From contig NZ_MDWE01000058.1 in the NCBI RefSeq assembly GCF_001715195.1, positions 1 through 34,517 of the forward strand: 34,517 nt of DNA, in the 5' to 3' direction. The notes beneath the pieces were generated by a model. The model saw nothing but the letters and a program-made list of their open reading frames with translations. It was not told the origin of the DNA and ran no database searches. Position 1 is the stretch's first letter, and each line of letters starts with the position of its first letter. The position numbers and the translations under genes are program-made. Shown here piece after piece: positions 23,022 through 25,921 of this stretch. The stretch is from Rhodohalobacter halophilus (GTDB taxonomy: Bacteria > Bacteroidota > Rhodothermia > Balneolales > Balneolaceae).

Positions 23022-24548
23022 TTAAGGTTTTTCAAGTGCAATCACATCATATAAGTCGGTACGTCTGTCTTTCAGCGTTCGAACGCTGCCTTGTTCATGG
23101 AGTTCTTTCAGTAAATCGAGATCAACATCCACAATTAAAATCATCTCTGTATTGGGAGTGGCTTCTGCCTTAATTCCGTTCGTTGGGAATGAGAAGTCGC
23201 AAGGAGTGAATACCACTGACTGGGCAAAGGAGATGTCCATATTGTGGACTTTAGGCAGATTTCCCACACTTCCTGCAATGGCTACATAGCACTCATTTTC
23301 TATGGCGCGGGCTATGGCACAGTTACGAACGCGGGAGTATCCGTTTTGAGTATCGGTTAAGAAAGGGACAAAAAGGATATCCATTTCCTCTTTTGCGAGC
23401 AGACGGCTCAATTCTGGGAATTCTATATCGTAACAGATTAAAATTCCGATCTTTCCGGCATCGGTATCAAATGTTTTGACCTGTGTTCCGCCACTCATAC
23501 CCCACACCTTCACCTCATCGGGGGTGACATGAATTTTTTCGTATCGCTCTACTTCTCCGTTTCGCTTGCAGAGGTAGCCGATGTTTTTGAGAACATCATC
23601 TTTGAATTCCGGCATACTTCCCGTGATGATGTTGGTGTTGTAGGAGATCGCAAAATCTGCAAATGTATCCCGAAGACGCTCGGTATATCCGGCCAGTTTT
23701 CGAATTGCGTCTGGCTCGGATAGGTGGTTGTATTCAGCCATCAGCGGAGCATTGACATACTCCGGGAAGAGTAAAAAATCGGCGCGATAACCCGAAACGG
23801 CATCTACAAAATATTCGATCTGTTCGGTGAGGTCATCCCACCCTGCATACGGTCGCATTCCCCATTGAACCAGTCCGAGACGAACCACACTTTTCTGAGG
23901 TTTGTACTTCTTTTGCGGTTTTTGATAGTAGATGTTTGACCATTCCAGCAGGGCTGCGTACGACTCTGAGGCATCATCCTCAGGCAGGTAGTTTTTAACT
24001 ACGCGTTTTACATGAAAGTCATTGGAGAGCTGGAAATTTAAAACCGGGTCGTGAATCTCCTTATTTTTGACCTTTTCGATATACTGTTTTGCAGTCAGGT
24101 CGTCGAATTTATGGAAGTTGGGCAGGCGTCCGCCAAAGACGATACTTTTCAAATTCAGTTCTTCACAGAGCTCTTTCCTGTAGTCGTAGAGACGGCGGCC
24201 CAGTCGTAATCCGCGATAGTCGGGATGAACCATCATATCCAGGCCATACATCGTATCACCCTCCGGAGAGTGGGTTGTAAAGGTGTCGTTGGCGGTTATG
24301 TCCAGGTAGGTGTGTTTGTCTTCGAAAATTTGATAATCGATGATAATGGCCAGGGCACAGGCTACCATTTCTCCGTCTACTTTAATGACAACCTGTCCTT
24401 CAGGAAATAGTTGAGTGAGCTTTTTGATCTGATCTTTGGACCATGCTGGGTCCTGTACTTTCGGGTAGCATTTGATCATCAGCTCCTGAAGAGTTTTATA
24501 GTCAGAGAATTTAAGTTGCTGAAGCTCAATTTTGTCGATCGATTTCAT
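23022..24548 (-). CDS. GNAT acetyltransferase-nitrilase family fusion protein
   Basis: A 508-residue cytoplasmic two-domain protein. Residues about 1-190 form a GNAT domain with the acetyl-CoA loop MMVHPDYRGLRLGRRL (Arg112 onward). Residues about 222-508 form a carbon-nitrogen hydrolase domain with the Glu-Lys-Cys triad Glu263 (LLFPEYVNAP), Lys338 (YEKIHVTPDE) and Cys372 (ILICYDIEFPE). Such fusions are found in several phyla and are assumed to process an amide and an acyl group on one molecule, but the substrate is not known. The start is set at ATG 24548. The upstream in-frame TTG at 24590 lies inside a TACATTTG promoter-like box and is rejected. The gene is flanked upstream by the hairpin island. 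Confidence 0.9.
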   Translation of the reverse strand: MKSIDKIELQQLKFSDYKTLQELMIKCYPKVQDPAWSKDQIKKLTQLFPEGQVVIKVDGEMVACALAIIIDYQIFEDKHTYLDITANDTFTTHSPEGDTMYGLDMMVHPDYRGLRLGRRLYDYRKELCEELNLKSIVFGGRLPNFHKFDDLTAKQYIEKVKNKEIHDPVLNFQLSNDFHVKRVVKNYLPEDDASESYAALLEWSNIYYQKPQKKYKPQKSVVRLGLVQWGMRPYAGWDDLTEQIEYFVDAVSGYRADFLLFPEYVNAPLMAEYNHLSEPDAIRKLAGYTERLRDTFADFAISYNTNIITGSMPEFKDDVLKNIGYLCKRNGEVERYEKIHVTPDEVKVWGMSGGTQVKTFDTDAGKIGILICYDIEFPELSRLLAKEEMDILFVPFLTDTQNGYSRVRNCAIARAIENECYVAIAGSVGNLPKVHNMDISFAQSVVFTPCDFSFPTNGIKAEATPNTEMILIVDVDLDLLKELHEQGSVRTLKDRRTDLYDVIALEKP

Positions 24549-24587
24549 AACGGTATATGACTGATGATGAATGGGTGTATCACAGAA

Positions 24588-24595
24588 CAAATGTA
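24588..24595 (-). promoter_or_regulatory. Candidate -7 box for the GNAT-nitrilase gene
   Basis: Minus-strand TACATTTG matches TAnnTTTG, 40 bases upstream of the ATG at 24548. No clear -33 TTG is seen at the normal distance, because the hairpin island begins there. Confidence 0.35.
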
Positions 24596-24654
24596 AGAAA
24601 CAGGCGGGTGAATCCTGAATATTGCAGAGAGGTATTTTTAATTCTTGTATCGAA

Positions 24655-24890
24655 GGGGCCGCCCCCGTTACCTGGGGCTTGGGTTTTCGCTATTGCTCAA
24701 ATACCCGATACCCGCGCTTAGGCACAGGCCTGCAGTCGGGCGTTCAGCCGGTGCAGAACGGAGGATTTTTCAATGTTCATAGATAAAAAAGTCCCGCAGG
24801 TTGCGGGACGCCGGATTGTAGCCCCACCGGAAACGGTGGAGTAATTGAATCGGGAGATTTAATCAAGCCCTGCAAAGCAGGGCGGCTCCA
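24655..24890. repeat. Hairpin island, REP/BIME-like
   Basis: Within a 344-base gene-free gap, at least five consecutive stem-loops are visible. They are GCCCC/GGGGC (24661-24678); CTGCA..CGG/CCG..TGCAG (24730-24756); GTCCCGCA-GGT-TGCGGGAC (24791-24809); CCACCG-GAAA-CGGTGG (24824-24839); and GCCCTGC-AAA-GCAGGGC (24867-24883). GTAG (24818-24821) directly precedes the fourth on the plus strand. GGAG (24886-24889) precedes the fifth on the minus strand. A GTAG or GGAG tetranucleotide before a hairpin is the known layout of RAYT-associated REP sequences, and two in opposite orientation make a BIME-like unit. The composition is richer in G and C than the flanks. No transposase is present. Confidence 0.55.
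24781..24809 (-). terminator. Terminator after the asparaginase-family gene
   Basis: GTCCCGCA (24791-24798) and TGCGGGAC (24802-24809) form a perfect 8-bp stem with a 3-nt loop. On the minus strand it is followed by TTTTTTATC. It is part of the hairpin island and is the strongest terminator candidate there. Confidence 0.7.
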
Positions 24891-24892
24891 TG

Positions 24893-25921
24893 CTATTCGT
24901 TCTCCCAGATCATCACTGTTCTGTCACCATTAGAGTTGAGGGAAGCTCTGAACATTCCCGCAGTGTTCATCTTCATGGAAATATTACCCTGATTGTCCAC
25001 TGCAATAAAACCGGCGTCACCGGGGTCAAGACGCTCATTCAACACAAAATCCATCGCCTCATCCAATGAGGCTCCTTTGAACTCCATATAGTTGGCTATG
25101 GTATTGGCCGAAACATTTCTCATAATCTGCTCCCCCCAACCGGTAGCAGAAATTGCAGCAATGTGATTGGCAAATGTACCTGAACCGATAATGGGTACAT
25201 CCCCCACACGGCCAAACTGCTTGTTGGTCATTCCTCCCGTTGAGGTTGCAGCGGCAAGATTTCCGTTGGAATCGTAAGCAACAGCCCCGACGGTACCAAA
25301 TTTGGTGTCCTTAATCCAATCGTGAATAGACTCTTCGGGGGTGATAGCACGGGCCTCTTCCTGTGCTCGTTCCCACTGTTCGTAGCGCCGATCGGTATGG
25401 AAATAATCATTATCCACCCGTTCTACATCAGTCTGATCGGCATAGGTTTCAGCTCCGTTACCTGAAAAGAAAATATGAGGAGAATCAGTCATCACTTTGC
25501 GGGCCAGGCTGATTGGGTTTTTGACAGTGGTGAGTCCGGTTAGTGCTCCGGCACCAAGCGTACTTCCATCCATGATGGCCGCATCCAGTTCGTGCCGACC
25601 CTCTTTCGTAAAGACTGAACCTCGTCCGGCGTTAAACAGCGGGTTGTCTTCAAGGCTTCTCACAACCTGTTCTACTGCATCAAGTGCAGAGCCGCCATCT
25701 CGTAGAACCAGTTCACCAGTTCGTAAAGCTTGTTCAAGACCTTCATAATATTCTTGTTTTATCGAATCGGGCAGGTCTTGGGAGATGGTTCCCGCACCCC
25801 CGTGCAGAGCCAGAGCCCACTGAACCGTTTCAGATTCTGTTTCAGGGGATTGATTTTCACAGCCGCTGAGCAAAACGGCAAAGAGAATTAAAAACGAGAT
25901 GAACGTGTATAAATGTTTCAT
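24893..25921 (-). CDS. Isoaspartyl peptidase/L-asparaginase (T2 Ntn-hydrolase), lipoprotein
   Basis: A 342-residue protein of the plant-type asparaginase/isoaspartyl dipeptidase family, made as a precursor that cleaves itself to expose a threonine nucleophile. The lipobox LLSGC gives a lipidated Cys at 21, placing it in the envelope, whereas many bacterial relatives are cytoplasmic. ALHGGAGT (38-45) is the N-terminal family motif, NAGRGSVFT (97-105) and DAAIMDG follow, and the predicted nucleophile is Thr210 in KFGTVGAVAYD, with TSTGG at 226-230. It should hydrolyse beta-aspartyl peptides and asparagine. The slipin gene lies 117 bases upstream with a terminator between. The hairpin island begins directly after the stop. 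Confidence 0.93.
   Translation of the reverse strand: MKHLYTFISFLILFAVLLSGCENQSPETESETVQWALALHGGAGTISQDLPDSIKQEYYEGLEQALRTGELVLRDGGSALDAVEQVVRSLEDNPLFNAGRGSVFTKEGRHELDAAIMDGSTLGAGALTGLTTVKNPISLARKVMTDSPHIFFSGNGAETYADQTDVERVDNDYFHTDRRYEQWERAQEEARAITPEESIHDWIKDTKFGTVGAVAYDSNGNLAAATSTGGMTNKQFGRVGDVPIIGSGTFANHIAAISATGWGEQIMRNVSANTIANYMEFKGASLDEAMDFVLNERLDPGDAGFIAVDNQGNISMKMNTAGMFRASLNSNGDRTVMIWENE

Follow-up and report, generated by a model that had tools for sequence, protein, structure and literature searches.

A paired three-hairpin module of Rhodohalobacter halophilus, an apparent terminal structure of subclass 1.2 Y1 transposase elements

Between an asparaginase gene and a GNAT-nitrilase gene of Rhodohalobacter halophilus lies a short island of stem-loops, and the locus raises the question of what such an island is and which enzyme, if any, it serves. 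It is part of a stretch of 34,517 nucleotides (contig NZ_MDWE01000058.1, positions 1 to 34,517), here called the window. A sequence-only reading of the window had proposed a repetitive extragenic palindromic (REP) sequence or bacterial interspersed mosaic element (BIME), served by a REP-associated tyrosine transposase (RAYT, TnpA-REP). From the analysis below, it is very probable that 24650-24894 is an inverted pair of the module found at the ends of subclass 1.2 Y1 (HUH) elements and, dispersed, as their non-autonomous copies. A broader claim, which we hold likely but with less assurance, is that subclass 1.2 Y1 transposases across bacteria generally have this three-hairpin module as their DNA substrate and terminal structure.

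Hairpins of the window element

The hairpins are real and go beyond chance. Three perfect stems of at least 6 bp (loop of 3-8) are present, against a shuffle mean of 0.29, and 2 of 1000 dinucleotide shuffles reach this number. They are found exactly as first described: an 8-bp stem with a 3-nt loop (24791-24809), a 6-bp stem with a GAAA loop (24824-24839), which extends to 8 positions with one C-A mismatch, and a 7-bp stem with an AAA loop (24867-24883). The folding z-score is -3.5 on the plus strand (0 of 200 shuffles equally good) and -3.1 on the minus strand (1 of 200). Two tetranucleotides had been read as REP feet. GTAG indeed forms the foot of the middle stem in its extended form, whereas the minus-strand GGAG (24889-24886) is not a foot, with two bases (CC) between it and the stem.

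Weaker hairpins are located in the left part of the element (24650-24767), which, when reversed, can be aligned with the right part. Both halves share a pattern in which hairpin 1 (GYCCC..GGGRC, then T) is accompanied by hairpin 2 (ACCC..GGG, in most followed by CTA) and hairpin 3 (TCC..GGA). The window element consists of two inverted copies (A> <B, tail-to-tail) of one module of ~105 nt. In the sister genome G009, the counterpart of hairpin 3 of module A is perfect (GTTCAGC-GAAA-GCTGAAC).

By sequence search alone the element would seem nearly unique. A search of the full genome, as the sequence-only reading had proposed, yields a single copy of the 303-nt stretch by BLASTN (E<=0.001) but eight module matches by covariance model (E<=0.1, six of them below 1e-5): the window pair, two further pairs (one on C17 beside the genome's own Y1 gene, the other on C27 with a weak second member) and single matches on C37 and C28, the latter weak. 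Against 58 relatives, BLASTN matches below 1e-4 beyond the window itself were obtained in G009 and G023 only. No Rfam family reached its gathering score, the best sub-threshold E within 24450-25000 being 0.26.

Modules beside Y1 transposase genes

The link to Y1 genes was established with two covariance models, R1, trained solely on the eight modules of the asparaginase-nitrilase gap (window, G009 and G023), and R2, trained on 22 modules. R1 gave 14 further matches (E<1e-5) at five other Y1 loci, which encode four distinct proteins (two are identical) with 35-51% identity to the G009 protein. In 39 otherwise-picked loci (147 kb, including two with the G001 and G021 genes discussed below), nothing scored above 10.7 bits except the refetched training loci. 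R2 was applied to 80 cross-phylum Y1 loci from named genomes, none of which was used in training; they are the best 80 of at least 575 confirmed relatives and not a random sample. A match at E<0.01 was found at 40 of them, and 22 carry modules on both sides. According to the record titles, these two-sided loci belong to Bacteroidota, Verrucomicrobiota, Planctomycetota, Acidobacteriota, Nitrospirota, Calditrichota, Zixibacteria and one deltaproteobacterium, mostly as metagenome-assembled genomes (MAGs). With the gene length taken as 455 bases, the matches within 200 bp of the gene are 32 minus and 3 plus upstream, and 27 plus and 8 minus downstream; the modules mostly point outward from tnpA. 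Two plasmid records carry distant Y1 relatives.

In relatives the autonomous unit is <module-tnpA-module>. In G005 a block of 871 bp that spans it, and overshoots the two module matches by 9 and 20 nt, is duplicated at 96.6% identity. Such a unit, with the Y1 gene between the hairpin ends and duplicated whole, is seen in relatives only (G005), and the window copy is geneless. The hairpins themselves are also concentrated around the genes. In the 600 bp before and the 400 bp after 71 Y1 genes of relatives there are 3.0-8.4 hairpins per kb, a figure that drops to 1.5-1.8 between 400 and 600 bp downstream and to ~0.5-1.5 beyond 800 bp, compared to ~0.6 in block-wise base shuffles. The cross-phylum set of 80 loci has 7.7 and 7.5 hairpins per kb in the 200 bp nearest the gene on either side, and ~0.6-1.9 beyond 600 bp.

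The enzymes at these loci share one signature. The catalytic Y..Q is present in 70 of the 71 proteins, the remaining one being that of G001, and 67 match Y[IVL]..Q..xx (two counted on reading full frames); the other three have a different residue near the motif end. Y..NP occurs at this position in none of the 71. Most contain DHxH or NHxH, together with WQ, at a median of 151 aa, and Y..Q is also found in 77 of the 80 cross-phylum relatives. The G009 protein (158 aa; E 7e-30 to Y1_Tnp) has DHIH, WQ and YIRNQKQRH, in which the last-but-one His is replaced by Arg, and the C17 protein of the window's genome, one of the two added on reading full frames, has YIKNQEEHH. Table 1 of Quentin 2018 (PMC6006769) lists subclass 1.2 TnpA-Y1 with YIKNQKEHH, 148 aa and REP 'no'. 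By motif, length and this table, the enzyme at the sister locus is assigned to subclass 1.2 TnpA and not to RAYT. The profile of the Y1 proteins (A5) matches the IS608 transposase chain 2a6m (PDB) at E 5.6e-15, and NCBIfam transpos_IS200 matches 10 of 10 members. The search for a Y1 or RAYT gene in the window's genome, also proposed earlier, was successful for both: besides the C17 gene, a class-2 RAYT-type gene is located at C1:168935-169396 (L026), where Y---NP and hairpin-rich flanks were recognised by eye.

The module structure is under selection, with DNA as the favoured form. In 68 modules from the 28 cross-phylum loci with strong matches, whose alignment is fitted to the model and leans towards it, 20 of 23 pairs show changes on both sides (270 cells versus 69.5 shuffled), with 93% paired versus 32-53% when slid. 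An unfitted MAFFT alignment of the eight gap modules gave 25 both-side cells versus 11.7 shuffled, and 75% paired versus 24-52% slid. G-T pairs are rarer than A-C mismatches, both in the 68 modules (8 versus 25, one badly aligned pair omitted) and in 22 modules (12 versus 26). Selection on an RNA should favour G-U, so this rarity and the nearly complete Watson-Crick pairing favour DNA over RNA.

The unit comprises three hairpins over about 100-113 nt, and its feet follow a pattern: NTAG, of which GTAG is one form, at the middle hairpin, and a tendency to xGTC at the outer hairpins 1 and 3. On the module strand, the C, T and A after hairpin 2 are conserved in 97, 98 and 88% of the 68 modules; C precedes hairpin 1 in 97% and hairpin 3 in 70%, and, for these two hairpins respectively, the stem opens with G in 98% and 86% and T follows the hairpin in 88% and 67%. 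At least four T within 7 nt after hairpin 3 were counted in 22 of the 68, and termination is therefore not a conserved property. Pooled foot tetranucleotides (n=758) were insufficient to resolve the feet, for which the model-based alignment was required. TGTC and AAAA are commonest with 15 each (TGTC 7.3-fold enriched) and GTAG occurs seven times (4.0-fold), but most feet are neither TGTC nor GTAG because each Y1 gene has its own palindromes.

Modules also occur away from the genes, in 27 of 58 genomes (own included) and up to 37 per genome. These R2 counts are lower bounds, as at most 65 candidates were scored per genome; G016, for example, has none in the genome scan, yet eight matches lie at its locus L097. 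Modules are more often present where a Y1 gene was detected in the genome (21 of 34) than where none was (6 of 24; Fisher p 0.008), and Y1 and module counts are correlated over the 58 genomes (rank correlation 0.54), both uncorrected for relatedness. In G043, 15 dispersed copies have a mean best identity of 81% to the five modules of the best-matching Y1 locus (L036), 68% to 19 modules of other genomes and 90% among themselves. Neighbours within 300 nt are inverted in 14 of 14 cases (20 fetched loci, some picked because paired); of the next neighbours, 313 and 320 nt apart, one pair points the same way and one is inverted. Seven back-to-back dimers of G043 (L261, L262, L263, L265, two in L268, L271) have identical spacing and no room for a gene between them. 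In this they resemble miniature inverted-repeat transposable elements (MITEs) derived from module-tnpA-module. Modules also form long arrays in the neighbourhood of Y1 genes at L197:1118-2182 (Pollutibacter soli) and L203:1457-4047 (Desulfococcaceae bacterium); all listed matches of the L197 array have the same direction, unlike the inverted pairs elsewhere.

The asparaginase-nitrilase gap across the genus

The features of the locus are collected in Table 1. For the GNAT-nitrilase gene the ATG was taken as start, and the open reading frame (ORF) can be extended to a TTG at 24590. A nitrilase (E<=1e-80) is encoded by 22 of 28 genomes of the genus and has the asparaginase beside it in 14. In G001, G017 and G026 the contig ends within 1 kb of the nitrilase and the asparaginase is unseen; in G003, G011, G015, G018 and G019 there is no asparaginase in the sequence fetched upstream of the nitrilase.

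Table 1. Features of the hairpin element and its flanking genes in the window
Feature	Coordinates	Strand	Basis
Module A, left, degenerate copy, inverted relative to B	24650..24767	+	R1 77.3 bits, R2 67.3 bits (training copy of both); aligns with B
Module A hairpin 1, G-CCCC...GGGG-C	24661..24678	+	sequence, alignment with B
Module A hairpin 2, degenerate, two mismatches in 7 positions	24711..24728	+	by eye
Module A hairpin 3, GTTCAGC-CGGT-GCAGAAC, one mismatch	24742..24759	+	by eye
16-nt spacer, facing ends of A and B	24768..24783	.	equivalent interval of G009 is module-tnpA-module
Module B, right, well-preserved copy	24784..24894	-	R1 111.7 bits, R2 95.4 bits (training copy of both)
Module B hairpin 1, 7 bp, 3-nt loop	24867..24883	-	
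Module B hairpin 2, 6 perfect bp, plus-strand GAAA loop, one C-A mismatch if extended	24822..24841	-	
GTAG, NTAG foot of module B hairpin 2	24818..24821	+	
Module B hairpin 3 and T6 tail, intrinsic-terminator-like for the asparaginase transcript	24785..24809	-	
Asparaginase_2 gene, upstream gene of the split pair	24893..25921	-	Pfam PF01112, E 8e-109
GNAT-nitrilase gene, downstream gene of the split pair	23022..24548	-	Pfam PF00795, PF00583

The size of the gap varies widely. The two genes adjoin on one strand in G022, G010 and G006, with gaps of 3, 3 and 8 bp. Larger gaps occur in G027 (135 bp), the window (347 bp), G023 (1168 bp), G021 (1201 bp) and G009 (1529 bp). In six genomes the gap measures 750-1124 bp and holds, by eye, an ORF of another kind; the ORF in six congeners (L069, L070, L071, L072, L074, L077) has a potassium-channel-like TVGYGD motif, also recognised by eye. 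The junction of the two genes seems to be a repeated insertion point.

The sequence-only reading had stated that no transposase is nearby. This holds within the window, whereas comparison of the same gap in the sisters, another of its proposals, reveals a Y1 transposase gene inside the gap in G009 and G021, and a module pair also in G023. In G001 a Y1 gene lies on the same side of the nitrilase, where the contig ends. The order in G009 is nitrilase - A1> <B1 - tnpA - A2> <B2 - asparaginase, and that in the window is A> <B without the gene. A tree of 68 rows without outgroup separates the Y1 proteins of G009, G021 and G001 from all others by a single branch, with a support of 94/73 and recovery in 96% of 200 bootstrap trees. 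The window's nitrilase shares 96% identity with those of G009 and G023, and 87% with those of G001 and G021. Because the Y1 genes form one clade and the nitrilases show these identities, tnpA was probably at the gap in the common ancestor and later lost from the window and G023; the alternative is that the Y1 genes arrived by independent insertion. No close empty-site pair was present among the genomes compared.

Under ancestral presence followed by loss, the window locus would formerly have held tnpA. Its pair, now without a cognate gene in cis, is orphaned and could be moved, if at all, only by an enzyme acting in trans. In G001 the Y1 protein (L029:1501-1980) has Phe in place of the catalytic Tyr (FIRNQKQRH) in an intact reading frame and is, judged by this residue, probably inactive; the Y1 copies of both G021 and G001 may be decaying. 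Between nitrilase and module pair, the gap of G023 contains a cupin gene (L022:4185-4634; Cupin_7, E 2e-10), which adjoins what appears by eye to be a decayed extra module.

Module B places a hairpin and six T directly after the asparaginase gene, and the earlier suggestion that the island might supply the terminator of this gene is well founded in that respect. As a side effect, hairpin 3 and its T6 would place a terminator between two genes that lie 3-8 bp apart in three congeners, and may have separated their expression.

Relation to known systems and meaning

The closest known system is the REPtron/BIME, in which TnpA-REP (RAYT) genes are associated with GT[AG]G REPs (Nunvar 2010, PMC2817692; Quentin 2018, PMC6006769). 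As in REPtrons, a Y1 HUH gene is bracketed by inverted palindromic repeats, the dispersed copies are mostly inverted pairs, and the repeats resemble the transposase locus of their own genome (one genome examined, G043). Yet the module has three hairpins over ~105 nt instead of the single 20-40-bp palindrome of a REP, its feet are xGTC and NTAG, and the enzyme has Y---Q--HH (subclass 1.2) rather than the Y---NP of class 2. The likeness to subclass 1.2 TnpA-Y1 as given in PMC6006769 extends to DHxH/NHxH, WQ, YIxNQxxHH and the relatives' median length. The available part of that source reports no palindromes for subclass 1.2 and names Cyanobacteria and Bacteroidetes; here, modules bracket many genes and the relatives occur in more phyla, mostly as MAGs. 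With IS200/IS605 elements (IS608, ISDra2) the system shares a single Y1 enzyme and terminal hairpins, but the module ends are inverted three-hairpin copies, and known IS200/IS605 members are described in PMC2817692 as being without terminal inverted repeats. The CGTC-tagged REPs (Di Nocera 2013, PMC3733652) share with some of the modules an xGTC directly 5' of a short hairpin. They are defined by an 8-9-bp stem opening with A-T pairs, a CCA tail and no transposase. Membership of this superfamily was rejected, as the module stems open with G and are shorter, T replaces the CCA tail and a Y1 gene is attached. In the literature searched (without subscription journals and preprints), neither the module nor palindromes at genes of subclass 1.2 were seen to be described, and six 15-nt hairpin strings do not occur.

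By analogy with IS608 TnpA and TnpA-REP, for which single-strand hairpin recognition is reported (PMC8266576), the Y1 transposase would recognise the hairpins in single-stranded form, along with their short xGTC and NTAG feet, and would cut and rejoin beside them.

How far, then, could the island be explained otherwise? A canonical REP/BIME served by a RAYT would account for the GTAG at a hairpin foot and the inverted pair, and the genome does contain the class-2 gene on C1. It is nevertheless very unlikely: R2 had no match (E<=1) at 26 class-2 RAYT loci (87 kb), that of the window's own genome (L237) included, the sister enzyme at the same locus has subclass 1.2 motifs, the unit consists of three hairpins, and conservation does not extend to the fourth base of the foot, the GTAG of the window being NTAG in the family. 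The sequence-only reading was thus right about a Y1 enzyme and a BIME-like unit, with its inverted pair, related dispersed copies and an open Y1 gene at the same locus in sisters, and wrong about the transposase family. A structured non-coding RNA or riboswitch-like leader, kept for its RNA function, would fit the strong covariation and low folding energy, and is even harder to credit given the lack of an Rfam family, the rarity of G-T pairs, and copies in both orientations that mostly point away from tnpA on either side. Just as improbable is an intergenic transcription terminator accompanied by hairpins that arose by chance. On the asparaginase strand, hairpin 3 of module B and its T6 are a good intrinsic-terminator match, but the reading does not explain why there is an inverted copy with further hairpins, why G009 has an array with tnpA, or why copies are dispersed, and as a full account it is refuted.

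Several observations weigh against a module-bearing subclass 1.2 element. The other 40 cross-phylum loci have no R2 match at E<0.01, and hairpins are equally dense there (mean 5.05 versus 4.95 per locus); their palindromes may be versions beyond the reach of R2. The same-locus Y1 genes of G021 and G001 have no module by R1 or R2, and the hairpin finder gives one hairpin within 700 bp for both combined. Modules are carried by six of the 24 genomes without a detected Y1 gene and are not seen in 13 of the 34 with one, in a search that undercounts. Around some Y1 genes of other phyla (L174, L183, L189, L197) neighbouring modules have the same orientation. In the eight-module alignment, two of five measures are not clearly above shuffling (46 and 308 of 500), and alignments A4 and A6 are fitted to the model. 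NCBIfam REP_Tyr_transpos weakly matches 9 of 10 Y1 proteins, the first member with 21 bits at a cut-off of 80. Finally, module B of the window is closer to B1 of G009 (83%) than to its positional counterpart B2 (77%), so that simple excision would not cleanly turn a G009-like state into that of the window, and such an array is only a candidate for the exact origin of the window pair.

As a remnant, the window element is ordinary; as an apparent terminal structure of subclass 1.2 it is notable. Subclass 1.2 is a little-studied transposase family, and the module brackets many of its genes in several bacterial phyla. If the general claim is true, a class listed without REP is REPtron-like, with three-hairpin ends that face outward, <module module> dimers that resemble MITEs and arrays that resemble BIMEs. 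Hairpin-rich repeats between genes of a number of genomes would also gain a name, and at the asparaginase-nitrilase gap sister species can be compared for an enzyme that is present, decaying or lost. A Y1 subclass described without insertion sequence ends and REPs appears to have a conserved DNA partner, and since this partner is recognisable, the substrate of subclass 1.2 is directly testable in vitro.
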